Shown: positions 15,338-37,386 of the stretch, piece by piece
How positions within the stretch are numbered: position 1 is the stretch's first letter
Layout: each line of letters starts with the position of its first letter
Source: Pararhizobium sp. IMCC21322
Lineage (GTDB): Bacteria > Pseudomonadota > Alphaproteobacteria > Rhizobiales > GCA-2746425
DNA length: 64,000 bases
Reading direction: 5' to 3'
NCBI RefSeq assembly: GCF_030758295.1
Contig: NZ_CP132335.1
Span: forward strand, 3,510,412 to 3,574,411
The notes under the pieces: generated by a model
Seen by the model: the letters and a program-made list of their open reading frames with translations, nothing else
The model's database searches: none
Told to the model about the DNA's origin: nothing
Position numbers and translations under genes: made by a program

Positions 15338-15654
15338 TGGCAAATCCATATCGAAAGTATCAAGGTTTTGGGCTTCGTGTTCATAGAGCGGAAACGGCAT
15401 TTAAAAAGCTGGCACTTGACCATTTTGCAGACATTTACACACGCGGCTTCGACAATTGTTTTGAAATGTATGACGGAGATGCAGTTGTTTGGGCGCTCAT
15501 GGATAAAGCATCCAAAGAACCAGACCAATATGGGCAAAACCTTCTGACCGAGGGTATTCAGCACATGTTTAACCGAACCTTGGCGGGGCAAAAATACCCT
15601 GAAGCTTGGCTGAAAATATATCGAGCAAAACCTGAACAAAATTCATTTCTGTGA
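15337..15654 (+). CDS. hypothetical protein downstream of ardA
   Basis: The ATG at 15337 shares a base with the ardA stop (TGATG), so translation is coupled. The 105-residue product (MANPYRKYQGF...) is mixed alpha/beta with no recognised domain. It ends just before a long hairpin at 15655. As a partner of ArdA in the leading region it may also protect incoming DNA, which is inference. Confidence 0.65.
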   Translation: MANPYRKYQGFGLRVHRAETAFKKLALDHFADIYTRGFDNCFEMYDGDAVVWALMDKASKEPDQYGQNLLTEGIQHMFNRTLAGQKYPEAWLKIYRAKPEQNSFL

Positions 15655-15712
15655 GTGATTGCATCACAGGAAAGCGTGACCCCATGCGCACGCTTTCCGC
15701 TGATGCAATCAC
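15655..15712. promoter_or_regulatory. 58-nt hairpin upstream of the ParB-like gene
   Basis: Left arm GTGATTGCATCA then GGAAAGCGTG; right arm CACGCTTTCC then TGATGCAATCAC. The arms pair perfectly apart from a 2+2-base internal loop, and the top loop has 10 bases. There is no T-run, so it is not a standard terminator. It could be an mRNA control element, a ParB-like binding site or a single-stranded promoter. Confidence 0.7.
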
Positions 15713-15749
15713 GCATCATTTTATCCATTTATTGAAAAGGAAAACTATC

Positions 15750-17453
15750 ATGGAGTTACAACATATTGACCTAAGCCAACTTAAAACAACAAAATTGAAT
15801 GTCCGTAAAATCGGCGCAAAAGAAATTGATGACCTTGTGCCAAGCATTCAATCTCTTGGCATTATTCAGCCGCTTTTGGTACGTGCTAATTGTGAGGGCT
15901 TTGAAGTTGTCGCGGGACAGCGCCGCTTTCATGCCTTGAGCAAAATTGCCGAATCCGAAGCAGTTGAACCTGTGCCCTGTATCATCATGCAGGAGGGGGA
16001 CGATGCGAAGGCCATTGAGGCGTCTTTGGCGGAAAACATTGCCCGTCTGCCAATGAGAGAAATTGACCAGTACAAAGCGTTTTCTGCCCTGTCCAAAAAA
16101 GGGACAGGCGTTGAAGATATTGCCGCGCAATTTGGAATTACCGACAGGCAGGTCAAACAGCGTCTTGCCCTTGGTAATTTATACGCGCCGATTTTAACCG
16201 CCTATGAAAAACAGGAAATAGGCGTCGATACAATCCGCTCCCTAACCTTGGCAACGCCGAAGCAGCAAAAAGCATGGTGGCAATTGTTCAAGAGCGACGA
16301 ATACGCGCCCCAATTTCACGCGCTGAAAGCTTGGCTTTTTGGTGGGGCGAATATCCCGCTTGAAAATGCGTTGTTTGATGTCGCGGATTATAAGGGGCAG
16401 ATTGTTTCCGACCTTTTTGGGGAGGAAAGCTATTTTGATGACGCAGAGAAATTCTGGACGCTTCAAAACCAAGCCATAGCCAAGCTGAAACAGGGTTTTC
16501 TGGATGAAGGCTGGCAGGAGGTGACTATCCTTGATGTCGGAGAGTTTTATTACAGATGGGATCACGCTGAAACGGATAAAGACAACGGCGGCAGGGTCTA
16601 TATTTCTGTCAGCAAGCTTGGTGAAGTCTCCCAGCATGTCGGTTATGTCACCCAAAAAGAAGCCAAGCGCAAACAGCAAGAGCTGAGCGGCGAAACGCCC
16701 GTTTCCAAAAACGGCGAACTCACCAAGTCCATGCAGAATTATCTGGCCTTGCATCGCCATAGCGCGGTGAGAACCGAACTCCTGTCACATCAGGGCATTG
16801 CCCTGCGTTTGGCAGTTGCGCAGATGATTGCGGGATCTTCGCTTTGGAGTGTTCAGGCCGACCCGCAAAAGGCCAACACAGACGCCATTGCCCAAAGCCT
16901 TGCAACCAATAAGGCGGAAAGCGTGTTTCAGGCAGAGCGCGGACGGGTGCAGAACCTGTTAGACCTGTCTGGTGACGCGGGCGAACCCATCGTACCGCGC
17001 AAAACCGATTGGGGTAAAAGTCCTGATCTTTACGCCATAGTCGCCAAGCTGATGGAACTGGACGATGCCAGCGTCAATCTGGTTTTGACCTTTGTCGTTG
17101 CCGAAACCCTGCCAAGCAATTCTGCCCTTGTTGAGATTTTGGGTGAAAAACTGTCGGTGAACATGGCCGATCACTGGCAACCGGATCAAACCTTCTTTGA
17201 TCTGTTGCGCGACAAGGAAACGCTCAACACCATTGTCAAACAAGTCGCTGGAAAAAGCGCGGCAGACGCGCATGTCGCCTCGACCGCCAAAGTCCAGAAA
17301 CAGATCATTCAGGACGGCTTGAGCGGCAAGCGCAAGAATGGCAAGCAGGACTGGCAACCGGGTTATATGAGTTTCCCCATGACCGCGTACACCAAAAAGG
17401 GCGGCATTGAAGCCATGGACAGCCGCAAAGCCCTCAAGAAGCTGTTTAAATAG
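15750..17453 (+). CDS. ParB/RepB-like nuclease-domain protein
   Basis: The 567-residue protein has an N-terminal ParB/Srx domain (NVRKIGAKEIDDLVPSI, GIIQPLLVR, VVAGQRRFHAL, ENIARLPMREIDQY) followed by a helix-turn-helix (GVEDIAAQFGITDRQVKQRLAL). A long C-terminal part is of the kind seen in plasmid-borne ParB family proteins. These proteins bind DNA; many such large versions lie in leading regions rather than next to ParA. I start at the ATG at 15750, after GAAAAGGAAAAC; the open frame upstream overlaps the hairpin. It ends at a strong terminator. The ParA-like gene at 29889 is 12 kb away, so pairing of the two is uncertain. Confidence 0.85.
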   Translation: MELQHIDLSQLKTTKLNVRKIGAKEIDDLVPSIQSLGIIQPLLVRANCEGFEVVAGQRRFHALSKIAESEAVEPVPCIIMQEGDDAKAIEASLAENIARLPMREIDQYKAFSALSKKGTGVEDIAAQFGITDRQVKQRLALGNLYAPILTAYEKQEIGVDTIRSLTLATPKQQKAWWQLFKSDEYAPQFHALKAWLFGGANIPLENALFDVADYKGQIVSDLFGEESYFDDAEKFWTLQNQAIAKLKQGFLDEGWQEVTILDVGEFYYRWDHAETDKDNGGRVYISVSKLGEVSQHVGYVTQKEAKRKQQELSGETPVSKNGELTKSMQNYLALHRHSAVRTELLSHQGIALRLAVAQMIAGSSLWSVQADPQKANTDAIAQSLATNKAESVFQAERGRVQNLLDLSGDAGEPIVPRKTDWGKSPDLYAIVAKLMELDDASVNLVLTFVVAETLPSNSALVEILGEKLSVNMADHWQPDQTFFDLLRDKETLNTIVKQVAGKSAADAHVASTAKVQKQIIQDGLSGKRKNGKQDWQPGYMSFPMTAYTKKGGIEAMDSRKALKKLFK

Positions 17454-26816: not shown

Positions 26817-28256
26817 ATGGCGCACCCTTCTGTCCTAAAAGAAATTTCACGTTGGTCAATCGAAGCTAAAGACGAGGATAACTCACGCTACTTTTTCCAT
26901 TTTGATGACGTTTCCGACATCGAGGAGGGAAGAAAAAACTATGTCATTGGGCGAAAAGGAACAGGTAAAACCGCTATCGCCGAATATCTTCATAACGACA
27001 AAAATTACAATCAGTTCTCACGATTGCTTTCGTTCAAAAATTTCCCTTTCAATTCGCTGTATAGCCATGCGGATGAATCATATAATCGTCCAAACCAATA
27101 TATCACTCTCTGGCTGTATGTAATTTACCATTATATTTGCTCAATGCTTGCCGAAAACGAGCAAGTTTGCAGTAGATGCAAATTCGATTTGAAGAAGTCA
27201 TTCAATTTCGACGTGAAAGGTGCGCTGGCTCGTTCAATGAAAACAATTACAAGCCAAGGCTACAGCCTCAATTTAGCGGGTTTTGGTGGTGGTTTTCAGT
27301 CCGACGGAGAGACTGCTGAGTTCGATTACGTAAAAGCCAACGAAACCATGCGGGAATTTATTCTTTCGGTCATAGATGATGGTGAATACTATATTATTTT
27401 TGATGAATTGGACGAAGACTACCGAGATGTCCTAAATCCAGATCGCCGCGACTCGTACTTCGAACTTTTAATAAGCTTATTCAAGGCAGTTCAAGTAATA
27501 AGAACTGATTTTTCGAATTCTAACACTAACATAAGACCGGTCATATTTCTGAGAGATGACATCTTTGACTTGTGTAGGGATGTTGACAAAAACAAATGGT
27601 TGGATCGTGCGGTTACACTCAGCTGGACGGAATCGCAATTGCGCGAACTAGTGCACTTCAGACTTGCACGAGCAATCGAATCAAAAAGCGAAAAGGTCGA
27701 TGACGCTTTGTCGTCTTGGGATGAGATATTCGCGGTTCGAAAGACGAGCATCGGTGCCAACCGACGTGGAGCAATCGACACATTCAAATATCTGACTAGC
27801 CGCACTTTTCTCCGGCCAAGAGATATCATCAGTCATGTAAGGGAGTGTGCAAAAATAGCTCTCTCCAAGAATCATGAGCAGATAAGCAACTCGGACATCA
27901 AAGATGCTGCATCGGGTCATTCTGCGTACATGCGAAGGGAAGTCGTGGATGAATTGTTCCCTGTGTTAGACGATGTCGCTGAAGTCCTTGGAGTTTTGTC
28001 AAAGATCAGAAAGCCTATATTTACGAGAAAAGAATTCAATGACCGGTATCGCGAGTTTGTTAACCAAAACCCGTCCGCGAAAAAGCCTTTGACTGAGAGT
28101 CAGGTCCTAAAGTTGCTGTTCCATTTCAATGTAATTGGAAACATCACTTCTGGGAACCACAGAGTATTTGCCTACGATAGTGACACAAAGACCATGAACA
28201 TGGATGAAAACATGTGCATCCATAATGGCTTAATACACAGCTTGGACATACTATAG
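26817..28256 (+). CDS. P-loop ATPase, Sll1717-like (candidate defence protein)
   Basis: The 479-residue protein has Walker A GRKGTGKT (residues 45-52) and Walker B YYIIFDELDED (about 197-207), then a FLRDDIFD segment and a C-terminal winged-helix-like region (RKEFNDRYREFV...ESQVLKLLFHFNVIGNI). The layout agrees with AAA/STAND-type P-loop ATPases of the Sll1717 kind, often found in phage-defence islands. No nuclease domain is visible, so if it defends it may act as a stand-alone switch. It stands alone between two copies of a degenerate repeat. Confidence 0.7.
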   Translation: MAHPSVLKEISRWSIEAKDEDNSRYFFHFDDVSDIEEGRKNYVIGRKGTGKTAIAEYLHNDKNYNQFSRLLSFKNFPFNSLYSHADESYNRPNQYITLWLYVIYHYICSMLAENEQVCSRCKFDLKKSFNFDVKGALARSMKTITSQGYSLNLAGFGGGFQSDGETAEFDYVKANETMREFILSVIDDGEYYIIFDELDEDYRDVLNPDRRDSYFELLISLFKAVQVIRTDFSNSNTNIRPVIFLRDDIFDLCRDVDKNKWLDRAVTLSWTESQLRELVHFRLARAIESKSEKVDDALSSWDEIFAVRKTSIGANRRGAIDTFKYLTSRTFLRPRDIISHVRECAKIALSKNHEQISNSDIKDAASGHSAYMRREVVDELFPVLDDVAEVLGVLSKIRKPIFTRKEFNDRYREFVNQNPSAKKPLTESQVLKLLFHFNVIGNITSGNHRVFAYDSDTKTMNMDENMCIHNGLIHSLDIL

Positions 28257-28689
28257 CTGAAGCCCTAACATTTCCACAGTATTAACATAATTTGCCTATC
28301 CGTATTTGAAGGCGCTAAATCGGGATCAATTACCGAATGCAGTCATTGGCGTAGCCGCAGCTAAATGTCGCTTTGTCCGCTCAGCTGCCGTTCGTTCAAT
28401 CTGCAGCGAAAGCCCGCTTCCCGCCCAACTTCGCCGTTTGTTGCGTTGCAATAGGTATGGCCAGAGAATTTTCCCTTCTTGGTAAAGACACTTGAATTTA
28501 GAAAAGCTCTATTCCCGATTGGCTTCGCTCATATGGATTTGCAAGAAAACATTGGAGCCCCGTGAACCAAATTTGCGACGGGTCATGACTGCTACGGAAG
28601 TGGAAATGAGCCGAGAAAGAATAAATACCGCAGGCGGCAAGATGTGTGTTGTTAAACAACACTACTTGGCAAGGGGGCAAAGCCCCCGT
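28257..28689. other. intergenic region with degenerate repeat and palindromes
   Basis: It contains the second copy of the repeat (28382-28414), a 17-bp palindrome GTGTTGTTAAACAACAC (28646-28662) and a 6-bp stem with AAA loop (28673-28687). The palindromes fall where resolvase homology in the next gene stops, so they may be the end of an inserted or deleted element. Confidence 0.45.
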
Positions 28690-29007
28690 TGCATCCCCGA
28701 GTAACGGCATATCTACAGTTGGGTCGATTGTCTCATTGAGTGATTGTAAACCTACATTTCGCGCTTTGAAGACTGCCGCCACACCGAGAGGACGCAGCAA
28801 TGAACGCCCAACCTCATCCAATCGCCAGATTGTCAGAAGATCGCCAGCATCGAGGGAGCACAAAAGCTTTTTCAGTTTTGGCCACTTGAGCGATGCGCCA
28901 GACACCTTCTCTATGACAACCTTTTCGCAGCTAGCCGCCTTTAGAGCATCGCGTTGCGCGTTCGGGCTTTGGACAACTGTTTCAAAAAGGATCGCGTAGG
29001 AACGCAA
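28690..29007 (-). pseudogene. decayed serine resolvase fragment
   Basis: The first 100 residues follow the resolvase pattern (QRDALKAASCEKVVIEKVSG, LLCSLDAGDLLTIWRLDEVGRSL, SLNETIDPTVD). The catalytic YARVST segment has become YAILFETV, so the serine is lost, and RLDRLGR has become RLDEVGR. After GLQSLNETIDPTVDMP the homology ends and the frame runs into unrelated DNA. It cannot be an active recombinase. Confidence 0.75.
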
Positions 29008-29022
29008 GGCCTTAAAATCTTT

Positions 29023-29562
29023 TTAGGCCTGCTCTCTTTTACCAGCTTGGGGTGTTGGGTCATCGGGGAAAACCAATGGCCAGAGAGCGTCTAAAAAATC
29101 TTGCGAATAACCTCGACCGGTTAGAGCGTGGCGTGCTGCCTCTTGGTCATTTTTGAACCGCTGAGCTTGGTCGAATAATATCGCTTGTGCTTGGTCTGTC
29201 GGCATTGCACCCACAATCATCAAGCGCCATGCTGCTTCCACAACATTTATGTTGGAGAACATCAGATAGATACGACGTACTAGGGCTGGCTCGAGGCCTT
29301 GAAAGTTTTTTGTTCCTATTGCTCCGCGCAGGGATTCATCCCCTTCAATGACCGTTTTGTTGAAGTCATTCCACATCTGATTGATGAGTATTTTATTGTT
29401 TACGGCTAGGAGCTCGTTCTCTCTCCTTTTCAAACCATCGTTCTCTTGTTCAAAATTTCTTCTTTCTTCAATGGCTATCTTTGTTTGGCGATACATGAAG
29501 AATGCCGCAACGGCAGCGGCGATAGCAGAAACTGCGGTGAAAAACAGGGCAATTTTATCCAT
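29023..29562 (-). CDS. membrane-anchored hypothetical protein
   Basis: The 179-residue product begins with a membrane helix (IALFFTAVSAIAAAVAAFFMY) and a coiled coil (residues 25-60), then a helical cytosolic domain (LVRRIYLMFSNINVVEAAWRLMIVGAMPTDQAQAIL). The plan, a short anchor with a helical body, is like many accessory-island proteins of unknown role. It lies between the resolvase fragment and the ParA operon, on the opposite strand to the latter. Confidence 0.62.
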   Translation of the reverse strand: MDKIALFFTAVSAIAAAVAAFFMYRQTKIAIEERRNFEQENDGLKRRENELLAVNNKILINQMWNDFNKTVIEGDESLRGAIGTKNFQGLEPALVRRIYLMFSNINVVEAAWRLMIVGAMPTDQAQAILFDQAQRFKNDQEAARHALTGRGYSQDFLDALWPLVFPDDPTPQAGKREQA

Positions 29563-29888
29563 AAAATATTATGTTAGTAAGGCAGAATAAATTACAAGGG
29601 CAGAGCGACTATGGAATAAGGGTATTTGAGTTTGTTTGTTGCAAAAGGAAGGTTTTTGCGACGGTGTTTCGTGCCGTGTTATTTCAATGGGTTAGATGTC
29701 GCAAAATACCAGATGAATTTTGGGCCCTTATGGGTTTTCATGTGGCCCAGAACGTTTAGAAATTGAATAAATGGTTTTAGGCTCACGGTCCTTTTAGCGA
29801 CCTTACCGGAATCATTGCGTATTATGAGGTGATCCACTAAAACATATATCAGTCTAGACCTTCTGTTATCATAATTGCTTGGAAGAAA
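29563..29888. promoter_or_regulatory. divergent intergenic region before the ParA operon
   Basis: About 326 bp between the membrane-protein gene and the ParA-like gene, with no gene seen. It should contain the promoter and, if this is a partition system, a centromere-like site. I did not find clear iterons. Confidence 0.4.
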
Positions 29889-30701
29889 ATGACCGTTGTT
29901 ATCTCATGTGTGAATCTGAAGGGTGGCGTAGGAAAAACCGCCATTGCCGTTAACTTCGCTGCATATTGCGGAAAAAATGGCTTTAAGACACTGCTTGTCG
30001 ATCTGGACCCGCAAACTAATGCGACGTTTTCATGTATCTCCCCTGAAGAATGGTCCAAACATAGCAAGAAAAAGGGGACAGTTGCCGACCTTTTAGGTGT
30101 TCGTAACGGAGACCATGCGGAGGGTAACATTGTGAAAGCAACAGATGTGATTTTGAAAGAGGTCTTTAAGGGGGTAGATCTTGTCCCGTCAAACCTAAGC
30201 TTGTTCACGATTGACTTAGATATTGGCGCAAGAACTGCCAGAGAAAATCTCCTCAAAAAGAGCCTTATAGGTGTGATGGACGATTATGATGTCGTAGTTT
30301 GTGACTGCCCACCAAACTTGACATTACCAACACAAAATGCGCTAGCCATGAGTACACATTATGTGGTTCCGGTGTCCCCAGATTTTCTATCCAGCTTGGG
30401 AATTGCCCTTCTGCTAAGAAGGGTCAAAAAATTCGGAGATGATATGGACGTAGATATTGAGAACGCGGGTATCGTAATGTCTCGAGTAGGGCGAGCGTCG
30501 TATTTTAGAGACCAAACTACCGCCGACTTAAAGAAGCAGTTTTCTGGAAGCGTGTTGAAATCGGAGATCAAAGAGCGCTCTGTGGTGACGGAATCTACCG
30601 CGAAAAACAAATCAGTATTTCAAATGAATGATGCTAACGCAAAGCGGGAGTTCACCAACTTTTCGGTGGAGCTTCTGAAAAAAGTGGGCCTACTACCATG
30701 A
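29889..30701 (+). CDS. ParA-like ATPase, first gene of a three-gene operon
   Basis: The 270-residue protein has the deviant Walker A of the ParA/MinD class (LKGGVGKTAIAVN, with the signature Lys11 and Lys16), the A' motif VDLDPQTNAT, and Walker B-like VVVCDCPPNLTL. ParA ATPases move DNA or protein cargo on the nucleoid. The usual ParB partner is not next to it; instead two unknown proteins follow, with a 4-base overlap (ATGA) to the first. It may partition the excised island or be part of another system. Confidence 0.85.
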   Translation: MTVVISCVNLKGGVGKTAIAVNFAAYCGKNGFKTLLVDLDPQTNATFSCISPEEWSKHSKKKGTVADLLGVRNGDHAEGNIVKATDVILKEVFKGVDLVPSNLSLFTIDLDIGARTARENLLKKSLIGVMDDYDVVVCDCPPNLTLPTQNALAMSTHYVVPVSPDFLSSLGIALLLRRVKKFGDDMDVDIENAGIVMSRVGRASYFRDQTTADLKKQFSGSVLKSEIKERSVVTESTAKNKSVFQMNDANAKREFTNFSVELLKKVGLLP

Positions 30702-31078
30702 AAACACATGAGCTTGCTAAGTCCTTGACTGCATTATCTAAAATATTGCGGAGTGTGCCAAATCAAGAATTGAGCGACTTTGGAAATTTGGTGTCAGCGA
30801 CAAAGGACGCGCCAAGTGCAGAACGAGGAATTAGCTTGTCCACCCTCGCTGTATTCTCCACCTATGGGAAAAGTGAATGGCAAACTGTCATTGCCGATTT
30901 TGACCTTCCAATTGAAATTAGACCGCGGGATGCTGCACGTGATGTCATGGGTAAAATTCTGACTTACTTGGCGGAGAACAGTCAAGAGCGTGACAGAATA
31001 GCCCGCAAGTCGTTGAATACGCCAAAAACGACTTCAGAGCTTTCAAACGCACTAAGCTTTTTGCTCAAAAATGACTAG
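30698..31078 (+). CDS. unknown protein B of the ParA operon
   Basis: The 126-residue protein overlaps the ParA-like gene (ATGA) and the next gene by 8 bases. It is helical with a conserved-looking core (ISLSTLAVFSTYGKSEWQTVIADFDLPIEIRPRDAARDVMGKILTYL) followed by a C-terminal tail. No helix-turn-helix or ribbon-helix-helix is obvious. In position it is where a ParB-like adaptor would be. Its role is unknown. Confidence 0.68.
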   Translation: MKTHELAKSLTALSKILRSVPNQELSDFGNLVSATKDAPSAERGISLSTLAVFSTYGKSEWQTVIADFDLPIEIRPRDAARDVMGKILTYLAENSQERDRIARKSLNTPKTTSELSNALSFLLKND

Positions 31079-31817
31079 CATTTCAGTCGCATTGCAAGCT
31101 AACTATGCAGCGTTTTCTGAACAGCTACCAATTGATTTGCAAATCAATGCTGGTGTATTCCGCGGCAAGAAAAGTTTAGTGGAAAGTTATGCAAGAATAG
31201 CGTCCCTTAACGCTCTCAAAATTGATTTAATCGAGCCAAATTTTCCAAAGGGCGCGGCTCAGTTTTTCTTCGAAGCTCATAACGATGCTCTGTTATCCCA
31301 TGTGAATGCCTGCTTTGGAAGCTGGAGGCCCGCACTTCAGTCGCTGCGAAGTTTCATGGAAAACTCCTTGGCAGCCATCTACTATTTAGATCATCCAGTT
31401 GAGTTCTCAAAATGGGAAAAAGACACTTTTCGGATTACTCCAAAAGAGTTGCGCGAGTATGCTTCTTGCCACCCAAAAGCACTAGATATTTGTAACGAAC
31501 TCGGTCTGAAGGTCGCTCTCGATACTGAGTACGCGACGCTTTCAAAAGCTGTTCATGGATCAAATAGTTTATTCCGAATGACATCGGCAAATGGAAAAAC
31601 TAATATAGCACAGGCGAGCATCCCTGAGCTTGGCAAGTGGTCTGCTCGTGAGCGTGCAACTGTTGATATCTGTGTAACTTTAATGATTGCAGTCCTCCAC
31701 GAACATTTGGACGGAGCTAAAATGTCAGGTTTGCGAACAAGCTTGAGCGTTTCTCTGAGACAAAACAGCAGAAAAGCGCTCAAAGAACATTTGGGAATCA
31801 CTATTCCTAATCCATAG
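31071..31817 (+). CDS. unknown protein C of the ParA operon
   Basis: The 248-residue helical protein overlaps the preceding gene by 8 bases. It has a LQSLRSFMENSLAAIYYLDHP helix and later YATLSKAVHGSNSLFR, whose Ser-x-x-x-His pattern recalls HEPN-like or DUF5677-type helical proteins, but the match is weak. ParA plus two helical proteins, all overlapping, forms a compact unit that I cannot equate with a known partition or defence system. Confidence 0.68.
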   Translation: MTSISVALQANYAAFSEQLPIDLQINAGVFRGKKSLVESYARIASLNALKIDLIEPNFPKGAAQFFFEAHNDALLSHVNACFGSWRPALQSLRSFMENSLAAIYYLDHPVEFSKWEKDTFRITPKELREYASCHPKALDICNELGLKVALDTEYATLSKAVHGSNSLFRMTSANGKTNIAQASIPELGKWSARERATVDICVTLMIAVLHEHLDGAKMSGLRTSLSVSLRQNSRKALKEHLGITIPNP

Positions 31818-31895
31818 CCGCGAGATATTCACCAATGATGTTTGCGCGCAGATTCAACGGAGTAAAATAGTTGGCTATTGCTCTAATTCGTGATT

Positions 31896-31944
31896 GCATA
31901 ACCGGTTTTATGGAACTTGTTGCAAATATCATGGATTTTGCGAC
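31896..31944 (+). repeat. 49-bp dif-like direct repeat, copy 1
   Basis: The copy starts GCATAACCGGTTTTATGG and ends TTTTGCGAC. It contains CATAA-N6-TTATG, the inner-arm layout of XerC/XerD dif sites. 42 of 49 positions match copy 2 (32654-32691 joined to 34368-34378). Confidence 0.65.
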
Positions 31945-32009
31945 AGGCAGGCGTTTCTTTCAAGTTTTGCTTAGGTATGGAATAATATCGGCAATGAATG
32001 GAGCGACAG

Positions 32010-32421
32010 ATGGAATTCAAAAAAGGCAGGCTAATAGACCACGTTCATTTGCGCGTTGCCGATTTGAAAAAGAGCGCGGTTTTTTTACAAAGCCATTGCA
32101 GAGGTGCTTGGCATTGACGCTTTCAATTCGCAGGACGGATTTTTTACCTGCGATGAGCTGTTTGTCAGTACCGCTGACGGGGAAGTCAGCAAAGTACATT
32201 TGGCATTTCAAGCTACCAACCGCGAAACGGTGAAGGCTTTTCACAAAGCCGCGCTTGCCAATGGTGGCACAGATAACGGAGCGGCAGGAGAACGGCATTA
32301 CCATCCCGCCTATTTTGCTGCCTACGTCCTCGACCCAGACGGTAACAATATCGAAGTTGTTCATCATGGCCCTGCCAAACGTAGTGCCGAGGCAGTTGTT
32401 TTTACGGCAGATGACCCATGA
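32010..32421 (+). pseudogene. VOC/glyoxalase-family protein, frameshifted
   Basis: From ATG 32010 the frame reads MEFKKGRLIDHVHLRVADLKKSAVF, the first strand of a vicinal-oxygen-chelate fold, then breaks at a run of seven T (about 32083-32089). One T fewer restores VFYKAIAEVLGIDAFN and the rest of the domain to YVLDPDGNNIEVVHHGP, ending at 32421. The metal-ligand positions (His near the start, Glu in NIEVV) are kept. The frameshift is either a true mutation, slippage or a sequencing error. It overlaps the next gene by 4 bases. Confidence 0.8.
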
Positions 32422-34584: not shown

Positions 34585-37386
34585 TTATCGCCTTGGACGT
34601 AAGACCAGTCCTCTATCGCGCTCCGGCGCACGCTCCTGCTTCATCCTTGGCATGTTGTCGCTATCGCTATAGAAACGGGCGTCATGTTTGTGGCGTGTGA
34701 GAGCGACGTAGGTCAGGTGTTTGTCCAGCGTTCGCGACGATAGGACAAATGACCTATCCACGGTTGCGCCCTGGCTTTTGTGGATGGTGGTGGCGTAGCC
34801 GTGATCTATAGAGGCGTATTGGCTTGGGAAAAACGTCAGACGACGCGGTTTGTCGCTGTTGGCACCGTCAAGGGTAACAACTATTTTGTCTTTGGTGACT
34901 TTTTCAATCGTCGCTAACGCACCATTTTTCACGCCAAGCTCGGTATCGTTTTTGGTGAAGATGATGCGGTCATTGGGGGCAAAGGCGCGCTTGCCATGAG
35001 TGGTTTTAAAATAATGCTCATCGACCAGTTCACCGCTTGATTTGCGCGCCATGCGAACAGCCTGATTGATCGCATGTACATCTTTGCGGCGATGGGCGAA
35101 GGCCAGCCGTGAGGCACTTTCGCCGCGTGTTTCGATATCAACCATATAATCCTGCACCAACGCGGCAATGGCGTCGTCTTGGCTTTTGGTGGTTTTGACC
35201 GCGCCGTGCTTTTGATAGGCATCTATCGCCTTTCCGGTATTGCCCGTTGCCAGATCAAGCGAGGCTTGGCGCTGCCAGTCTGATTTCTGGCGACGAATTT
35301 CTGTGAGTTTTGCCGCTCCAATATTTTCGGCAATATCTTTAAATGGAGTTCCGGCATTGATGGGCTGTAATTGTTCCGGGTCGCCTACCAGAACGAGCTT
35401 TGCACCATATGTCTTGGTGTGCTCGACAAAACGGCTCATTTGGCGAGTGCCAATCATTCCGGCTTCATCAATCACCAGAACATCGCCGGGTTTTAATTGA
35501 TTGTATCCGTTCTTCCAGCTCATTTCCATCGAGGCCAAGGTGCGGCTGATAATGCCGGAGGCATTTTGCAGACCATCGGCAGCTTTACCGGACAATGCCG
35601 CGCCAAAAACCTGATAGCCTTGTTTTGTCCAAGCCTCATGCGCGGCGGCAAGCATTGTGCTTTTGCCGGTTCCGGCCAGGCCGACAGCGGCGCTTATTCT
35701 TTCTGGCTTGAGAATATGATTTATCGCCGCGTGTTGTTCATCGCTCAGGCTTGCCCCATGTAGCTTTTGCAATATCGCGTTTTGGCGTTTGATGGCGTCA
35801 TGCGTGTGGGCAGGTTTCACGCCATGAGTCTTTTGTTTGGCCATGAATTTTGCGTCATGCGCGAGCCCGCTTTTAAGCCCCTCCATTTCCCGCGTTGAAT
35901 AAATCGGTAGCGGATCACTTTTGATCTCGACCAGTTCTTTCGAGCGCAAAACCGCATCGGAGGCGGCGCGTAAAGCCAACGGATCATCGATATAATTAGC
36001 CAGCCCGCGCAGGATATCACGGCGGTTAAACTCGGACTTTTTATCGGTGATAATATCCAGAATTTTGATCGGCGATTGCCGGACTTGTTGCGCCGTATAG
36101 AGTTGGTCTTCTTCGGGCAGTAAAAGCGCTTGGTCGGGATCTGCCAGCAGATCGACACCAGGCACCTGTTCGTTAAGTTCAAAAGCATTCTCGCGATGTA
36201 GTTTCGCCAGATGCACCACGTGCTGTTCCTTGAGGGTACAAAACTGTTCCTCTAAGCCGCGTCTTTCACCGAGTTGCCTTTCAATCAGTTTTTGCATCTC
36301 CGCCTGGTCACGGATTTTATCGGCTTCTGCGGCCTGTATGTGTTCAGCACGCATAATGTCGTATTTGCCGGAAAGCCTTGCCCAGAGAGCTTTTACACCT
36401 GTCGGCAAAAGCGCGACGCGGGATTTAACGATTTTAATCCTGCGCGCCTCTTGTGCTGCCTCCAATGCAGTACGCGCTTGTCTGTGATCACCGACAAGAG
36501 CGCGGCGTTTTGATTCAACGGCATCAACTTGTTTCTGAAAGAGTGTTTCTGCTTCTGCATAGGCGGCATCAAACGGAGCGCCCACCTTATCGGCAAAGCG
36601 TTCTGTGATATGCAATTGGACAGCATCAACAGAAGGCAGCTTTTTAATATCACCAAGGCGCGCGCGTAATTCTTTGGTCTTCACGCCAAGCCAGCGCGAA
36701 AGCGAATAAACTTCGCCCTGACCATCAACCGCAACAAAGCCGCGCCTGTCACCTTTAGCGAGCGCCAAACCATGTTCAGACAAGGCGGCGGCAAAGGCGG
36801 CCTTTGAATCAGAGCCCACCCAACAATCCAGCAAAAGGCTTTTTAATTCCTTTGGGTCACGTTGAGCTCTTTTTGCTTGCTGGTGTTCGACTTGTGAGTA
36901 ATTGAGCTGGTCACGTTCCTCGCTATTCATCAAGCCGCGTGGCATTTGCCAACCATGTTCAAGGAATAGCTCCCGCGACAGCTCTTGTAACTTGCGCTTA
37001 TAAAGCGAGACATTCAGCGCGCGCATACGGACAATATCAATGCGTGACCACACACAATGCGCGTGCCGTCTGCCTTTCTTTTCATGAAATATGATTGCGC
37101 GGGGTTGGCCGGTTAATCCAAGTTTAGATTCAATTCCTGCAACGGCTTGCTCAAATGCTTCGACAGATACATTCTCTGTTTCCGGTGGGCTTAAGACCAG
37201 CGAGAACATGAAGTTCTTGCACTTCGTTCCCCGGCTCACCGCATAGGCTTCTGTTAAAGCCTCGGTCAGATCATCAGACACAAATCCAGAAATTTCATGC
37301 ACGCGGACATGCTCATTCTCACGCGTGTTCAAAAGATGCCGTGCCAATTGCACAGCACCGCCGCGTTCATTGCCCTTTAAAATCAA
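34585..37386 (-). CDS. relaxase-helicase fusion (mobilization nuclease with RecD/TraA-like helicase)
   Basis: The 933-residue protein starts with a relaxase domain (MILKGNERGGAVQLARHLLN; a histidine motif GRRHAHCVWSRID with His108 and His110). A coiled-coil linker follows (about 280-400), then an SF1 helicase like RecD/TraA with Walker A GLAGTGKST (569-577), Walker B LVIDEAGM, GDPEQLQPI, TTIHKSQGATVD and LTYVALTRHK. It would nick the transfer origin, stay bound to the 5' end and unwind the strand. Its start overlaps mobC (ATGA). Together with the coupling ATPase at 7229 it gives the element mobilization functions. Confidence 0.9.
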   Translation of the reverse strand: MILKGNERGGAVQLARHLLNTRENEHVRVHEISGFVSDDLTEALTEAYAVSRGTKCKNFMFSLVLSPPETENVSVEAFEQAVAGIESKLGLTGQPRAIIFHEKKGRRHAHCVWSRIDIVRMRALNVSLYKRKLQELSRELFLEHGWQMPRGLMNSEERDQLNYSQVEHQQAKRAQRDPKELKSLLLDCWVGSDSKAAFAAALSEHGLALAKGDRRGFVAVDGQGEVYSLSRWLGVKTKELRARLGDIKKLPSVDAVQLHITERFADKVGAPFDAAYAEAETLFQKQVDAVESKRRALVGDHRQARTALEAAQEARRIKIVKSRVALLPTGVKALWARLSGKYDIMRAEHIQAAEADKIRDQAEMQKLIERQLGERRGLEEQFCTLKEQHVVHLAKLHRENAFELNEQVPGVDLLADPDQALLLPEEDQLYTAQQVRQSPIKILDIITDKKSEFNRRDILRGLANYIDDPLALRAASDAVLRSKELVEIKSDPLPIYSTREMEGLKSGLAHDAKFMAKQKTHGVKPAHTHDAIKRQNAILQKLHGASLSDEQHAAINHILKPERISAAVGLAGTGKSTMLAAAHEAWTKQGYQVFGAALSGKAADGLQNASGIISRTLASMEMSWKNGYNQLKPGDVLVIDEAGMIGTRQMSRFVEHTKTYGAKLVLVGDPEQLQPINAGTPFKDIAENIGAAKLTEIRRQKSDWQRQASLDLATGNTGKAIDAYQKHGAVKTTKSQDDAIAALVQDYMVDIETRGESASRLAFAHRRKDVHAINQAVRMARKSSGELVDEHYFKTTHGKRAFAPNDRIIFTKNDTELGVKNGALATIEKVTKDKIVVTLDGANSDKPRRLTFFPSQYASIDHGYATTIHKSQGATVDRSFVLSSRTLDKHLTYVALTRHKHDARFYSDSDNMPRMKQERAPERDRGLVLRPRR

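Follow-up and report, generated by a model that had tools for sequence, protein, structure and literature searches.

Three overlapping genes of Pararhizobium sp. IMCC21322 form a conserved, co-diverging and accessory unit, which is most likely a defence or toxin-like system that has not been described before, and not one for DNA partition. The probability that this unit is a mobile conflict module, either anti-phage or toxin-antitoxin-like, is put at roughly 0.6. The genes lie in a window of 64,000 nucleotides, which is the whole stretch of DNA that was analysed, and are as follows:

29889..30701, + strand: gene A, ParA-type ATPase, 270 aa, ATG-started ORF
30698..31078, + strand: gene B, helical protein, 126 aa, ATG-started ORF; candidate partner or adaptor
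31071..31817, + strand: gene C, DUF5677-related helical protein, 248 aa, ATG-started ORF; candidate effector

A preliminary description of this DNA claimed overlaps of 4 and 8 bases, and these are borne out by the ORF listing of the window, in which A overlaps B by 4 bases and B overlaps C by 8 bases, with all three genes on the + strand. The G+C content of the module is 44.5%, compared with 49.9% for the window. The same description called the module a candidate new system. This term is upheld, as the three genes travel together as an accessory unit and as neither B nor C has a match in PADLOC-DB 2.0.0 or, at E ≤ 1, in NCBIfam.

Conservation and spread of the three genes

The genome collection was searched with the C-terminal half of ParA, taken from the window and from a second genome (G284), and 22 pattern matches were obtained, with 19 loci confirmed. 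Co-occurrence of the three genes in other genomes, which had been proposed as a check, was confirmed: B and C follow ParA in the order A-B-C in 18/18 loci whose contig continues beyond ParA, with C damaged in two of them. The contig of L020 stops inside ParA. The contig of L017 is that of G284, and L017 is therefore not independent of the G284 locus. The B and C proteins of the 18 loci also entered the profiles that were used in the later locus scan. Among viral contigs, the same ParA query found three, of which L012 has A-B-C and the other two (L013, L014) end just past ParA.

The co-divergence of the three genes was assessed on 18 complete sets, namely the window, L012 and 16 genome loci. 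The pairwise identities of each protein were found to track those of the other two (Mantel r 0.82, 0.81 and 0.80), and 0 of 5000 permutations gave values as high. The close packing of the genes is also widespread. Across 19 loci (L012 and 18 genome loci), A and B overlap by 4 bases in 12, and B and C by 8 or 4 bases in nine. The host record titles name Alphaproteobacteria and Saccharospirillum, a gammaproteobacterium, in addition to metagenome-assembled genomes. The latter are labelled Deltaproteobacteria, Desulfobacteraceae, Proteobacteria, Planctomycetota, Acidobacteriaceae, Tectomicrobia and Dehalococcoidia, labels in which binning errors are possible.

Searches with C returned few genomes. 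Three of 199 related genomes, three of 385 genomes of the class and four of 398 genomes were found, the own genome being included each time. In both of the other relatives among the 199, ParA is followed by a small protein and then by a C that is only 19–25% identical. The other two genomes of the class hold a close A-B-C set (G284) and a lone C-like gene, and among the 398 genomes one match (G759, L123) is likewise a C-like gene on its own. None of the four same-genus genomes gave a match to C, nor did the genome contigs when C was used as a single query. A first C alignment gave no match against the viral contigs, whereas a later, larger alignment found six loci. The C-terminal half of ParA had no match among phage records at 1e-12.

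Some loci extend the gene order beyond the range of recognizable sequence similarity. With the B profile, B homology is undetectable in L002, L003, L038 and L092, and these loci therefore count for gene order only. L092 (5986-8174), on a viral contig, has the same succession of a ParA, a small protein and a C-like gene, the last with a weak profile match (E 1.6e-5). At L043 (6001-8609), ParA is followed by a 127-aa protein and then by a 386-aa protein that appears ParB-like by eye; the N-terminus of the 127-aa protein weakly resembles that of B (E 0.0008 when seven sequences were searched). Both ParA and C are present at L122, with a gap between them.

Properties of the three proteins

ParA ATPases are known mainly for moving DNA and cargo. 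The ParA ATPase motifs of A are intact, since KGGVGKT, DxDPQ and CDCPPNLT are present in 21/21 aligned members of its family. A matches Pfam AAA_31 (1.7e-39) and Soj/ParA chains in the PDB. Against PADLOC-DB 2.0.0, a single match of 14.4 bits was obtained, to PDC-M28B (E 0.0038).

The 126- and 248-residue proteins had been described as helical, which agrees with the all-helical AlphaFold2 models of both. The model of B is of modest confidence (mean pLDDT 70.7, pTM 0.51), and that of C has a mean pLDDT of 91.0 and a pTM of 0.88.

No convincing known domain was found for B in Pfam. Residue 2 of B is K or R in 19/20 members, and in known systems basic N-termini activate ParA ATPases. When the B profile was compared with PDB sequences, the best match was the CARD of BCL10, at E 0.0076 and over 39 residues only. 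The 50 Foldseek matches listed for the B model include two death-effector-domain entries, with a top query-normalised TM of 0.36, and none of the fold matches of the model is significant. Neither the sequence match to the BCL10 CARD nor the fold match to the DED is strong alone, and the CARD, Death and DED families gave no Pfam match at E ≤ 1 in the 20 B members.

Two identities for B were considered and given up. The identification of B as ParB was rejected, as no ParB family is among the Pfam matches of the 20 members and the LG[RK]GL motif is found in none of them (0/20); an excerpt of PMC12704722 gives this motif as the ParA-binding motif. The idea that B is a SAP-like DNA-binding protein arose on visual inspection of the small proteins that accompany ParA at L044-type loci. 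It was dropped because Pfam has no SAP match in the scanned B-position proteins and because hhalign gave probabilities of only ~4 and 6% between the viral small protein and B.

A distant locus, L037 (4400-5836), encodes a ParA with KGGVAKT as its Walker A motif and a long C-terminal extension. This extension matches the separate B-position protein of L038, with 27% identity over 117 aa and an E of 5e-9 from a two-sequence comparison. Such a resemblance supports an A-B complex in that branch; homology of either the extension or the L038 protein to the B of the window is not detectable with the B profile.

The C of the window matches only DUF5677 in Pfam, and weakly so (7.5e-5, 23.3 bits against a cutoff of 27.1 bits). 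The same family (PF18928) is matched by 11/20 C members at E ≤ 0.1, with a best value of 8.1e-8. Eight residues are invariant in the 20 aligned members: R93, H108, E111, P135, Y154, L157, S158 and H162. E97 is nearly so, being D in L030. The Ser-x-x-x-His segment to which the preliminary description drew attention is S158-H162, within YATLSKAVHGS, and thus falls on two of the invariant residues. An alignment of C-type and DUF5677 proteins was also made, of which the 16 rows are ten C or C-like proteins (the window and nine selected) and six of the seven DUF5677 loci, L127 being left out. R93, E97, Y154 and H162 are present in 16/16 rows. In the model, H162 ends the helix 146-162, and R93 and E97 are on the helix 85-107.

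No relative of C was found among solved structures with its sequence profile. The fold search of the C model against the PDB with Foldseek gave 335 matches at E ≤ 10 and none at E ≤ 0.001. Among the best 50 of the 335, all seven with a probability above 0.5 are HEPN structures (4nqf, 3o10, 2hsb) or 2q00, an unnamed structural-genomics protein. The probabilities are 0.93 for 4nqf_B, 0.75 for 3o10_A and 0.60 for 2hsb, with a best HEPN E of 0.87, which is not significant. The HEPN motif Rx4-6H is not conserved, as the best suitably spaced pair of R and H columns is occupied in 5/18 full-length C proteins, and no HEPN family is among the Pfam matches of the 20 C members. Since the HEPN fold matches are not significant and the motif is not conserved, C is termed DUF5677-related and HEPN-like in fold, and not a HEPN member. 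A fold search against viral models gave no match better than E 0.8.

The frames of A and B are intact in L032 and L033 but C is damaged there, as would be expected if C were the costly part of the module; assembly error is a possible cause of the damage. C-like proteins were also seen without ParA alongside, at L007/L011 and L123; at L123, the gene immediately after the C-like one is by eye that of a P-loop ATPase.

Genomic context and candidate roles

The neighbours that were scanned were picked by eye and without a background rate, the flanks of L024-L031 being left out, and no enrichment is therefore claimed. Some of the loci lie among or beside phage-type genes. On the viral contig of L012, which is the same contig as L034, the module is placed between Phage_Mu_F (2.1e-19) and a Mu-like protease (6.4e-84), with Portal_Mu upstream and gpT downstream. 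The distant A-B-C set of L038 is beside a P2-type portal. At L036, the C gene is cut by the contig end, on the portal side, and a D12 methylase is located between C and the portal. The P2-type structural genes of L036 and L038 comprise the portal, a gpP-like terminase, GPO and the P2 capsid, with matches up to 1.7e-150. According to an excerpt of PMC9122126, the locus between gpA and gpQ in the P2-like phages of E. coli is an anti-phage hotspot.

Restriction or methylase genes are near five loci. A type III methylase follows C at L019, where a kinase and a UvrD-like gene are upstream; a methylase ends 12 bases before ParA at L022; a type IIG enzyme is separated from the module by one ORF at L023; an Mrr-type nuclease is near L016 and a methylase near L021. 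Other neighbours are an S24 repressor adjoining L015, with an IrrE-type regulator nearby, an integrase at L032 and a HATPase-domain gene at L009. The large neighbour at L018 has no Pfam match, and the surroundings of L008, L010, L026 and L028-L031 are ordinary by eye.

In the window itself, a P-loop ATPase of the Sll1717 family (26817-28256, +, 2.6e-84) is encoded 1.6 kb upstream of the module. It has a weak likeness to the anti-phage NCBIfam model DS41_1 (5.1e-9; 35.6 bits, where the cutoff is 370). It is followed by a 169-aa ORF (28498-29007, −) of which the sole match is a resolvase N-terminal domain (6e-12), and by a gene for a 179-aa protein (29023-29562, −) that has no Pfam match and by eye a hydrophobic N-terminus. 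The latter gene is divergent from the module and 326 bases away. Just downstream of the module (32000-32420, +) there is by eye a glyoxalase-like reading, seemingly split between frames. Genes of a conjugative element are also near the module: the segment 32856-37386 (−) holds an IS1182 family transposase (8.3e-115) and a gene (34585-37386) with a match to the Ti-type TraA relaxase, of which the score of 581.8 bits is just below the cutoff of 590.45.

The preliminary description offered three readings of the module, namely partition, positioning and defence. Defence is favoured because of the genomic context; partition is disfavoured, as no ParB, no repeats and no plasmid carriage were found; positioning keeps a place, though a small one. 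As a conflict module, A would be an ATP-driven switch and B the partner of A that links it to C. C would be an effector that A-B keeps inactive until the state of A-B is upset by infection or takeover. The freed C would then arrest growth; its target would most likely be RNA or a nucleotide, on which it would act at a site formed by R93, E97, Y154 and H162 (the R-E-Y-H set). Of the steps proposed here, the chemistry of C is the least certain. The occurrence of C-like genes without ParA (L007/L011, L123) was counted against the conflict module.

In a more daring form of this mechanism, which is regarded as very unlikely, ATP-bound ParA would sit on the host DNA and a death-fold-like B would keep C dispersed and silent. 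Breakdown or remodelling of the nucleoid by a phage would free ParA, upon which B would assemble C, and C would destroy RNA or a pool of nucleotides. If true, the pattern-forming ParA ATPase would be used as a sensor of host-DNA integrity.

The module could also serve addiction alone, as a toxin-antitoxin that stabilises mobile elements but does not act against phages. Its mobile contexts, the two loci in which C is damaged with A and B kept, and the precedent of the ParA/Soj-HEPN pair, which was proposed as a toxin-antitoxin, are consistent with such a role. However, addiction modules are common on plasmids and the module was not found among plasmid records, and restriction-modification genes are among the neighbours in five loci. 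A pure addiction role is therefore considered unlikely.

ParA-type ATPases with small partners are known to position carboxysomes and other cargo (McdAB). By analogy, ParA and B might spread C, or a C-bound cargo, over the nucleoid. This is suggested by the pairing of a ParA with a small protein whose second residue is K or R (19/20) and by the B-type extension borne by the ParA of L037. However, the patchy spread, the phage-type clusters and the restriction-modification neighbours suit conflict genes better, and there is no candidate cargo except C. Positioning as the function in its own right thus appears unlikely, but it could be part of a defence mechanism.

A role of the module in DNA partition is disfavoured, because no ParB, no repeats and no plasmid carriage were found. 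Under this explanation, the module would be an unusual partition system in which B, though not a ParB, would be the adaptor that binds the centromere; what it stabilises would be the surrounding integrative element or an ancestral plasmid. In its favour, A is a genuine ParA, the window holds the Ti-type relaxase gene at 34585-37386 and a protein with a ParB_N domain at 15651-17453, and three HTH models of Pfam match one B member each of the 20, weakly (E 0.06–0.29). However, neither a ParB-type second protein nor centromere repeats, which the preliminary description gave as the marks of an ordinary system, were found. Over 29400-32200 as a whole, short repeats are scattered and do not form an array; none was found in the part 29400-29900, whereas 31800-32200 has two families of two copies each. 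C (E ≤ 0.01), B (E ≤ 0.1) and the C-terminal half of ParA (E ≤ 1e-20) had no match in 72,556 plasmid records, nor did the C proteins of L002 and L003. As a control, full-length ParA at 1e-5 matched 4,517 of the 72,556 records, all with less than 60% identity and with ~31–32% among the ten matches listed. Furthermore, one copy of the module is inside prophage-type head genes, C is left without a role, and the chromosome already has its own ParA-ParB pair, in which a ParB_N gene (348.6 kb) neighbours the gene of a ParA (349.0 kb). The latter ParA and that of the module are the only matches to the ParA family profile in the own genome. A partition function is thus judged highly improbable.

The usual ParB is missing, as claimed earlier, in that no adjoining ParB gene was found. 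The ParB_N protein of the window (15651-17453, +; 600 aa, domain match 4.4e-14) is ~12 kb away. Three ParB_N matches of like score, in open frames of 575–601 aa, are found elsewhere in the genome. The 600-aa protein was set aside as a partner of the module because these three like proteins have no family-profile ParA nearby.

If the conflict reading is true, the ParA fold would be extended into immunity, in a unit common to distant bacteria, and DUF5677 would gain its first testable role. The R-E-Y-H set of C and the Walker A lysine of A make the hypothesis directly testable.

Comparison with known systems

The three-gene unit is not named in the titles and abstract openings of the published literature among the matches listed. 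With ParABS, the module has a ParA-type ATPase in common; it differs in that B neither matches ParB nor contains LG[RK]GL, that no repeat array was found in 29400-32200 and that none of the plasmid records gave a match. A recurrent pair on viral contigs (L044-L050, L053-L055 and L057) consists of a ParA that by eye is fused to an HTH and a protein of 126–168 aa. This pair is similar to the module in having a ParA (31–36% identical) that is followed by a small protein, but it has no match to C.

DUF5677 proteins (PF18928) share R93, E97, Y154 and H162 with C, as seen in the six that were aligned. They differ in their surroundings, since the seven DUF5677 loci in 150 relatives have by eye no ParA gene within 3.2–3.5 kb. 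Bacterial CARD adaptors are described in defence systems in an excerpt of PMC13236601, which cites Wein et al. 2025. The likeness of B to these is that the BCL10 CARD is the best PDB sequence match of its profile; the differences are the length of this match, which spans 39 residues, and the Pfam search, which gave no CARD, Death or DED at E ≤ 1.

Anantharaman et al. 2013 (PMC3710099, in excerpt) reported a gene dyad of ParA/Soj and HEPN (the MAE_18760 family) and postulated it to be a toxin-antitoxin. Set against the dyad as it is described there, the module has three genes, with B as an extra partner, and its C has no conserved Rx4-6H, matches DUF5677 and has no HEPN match in Pfam. In both, a ParA/Soj ATPase gene is beside a gene for an all-helical putative effector, and as far as the excerpt goes, the ParA/Soj-HEPN pair is the closest published relative of the module among the matches listed.
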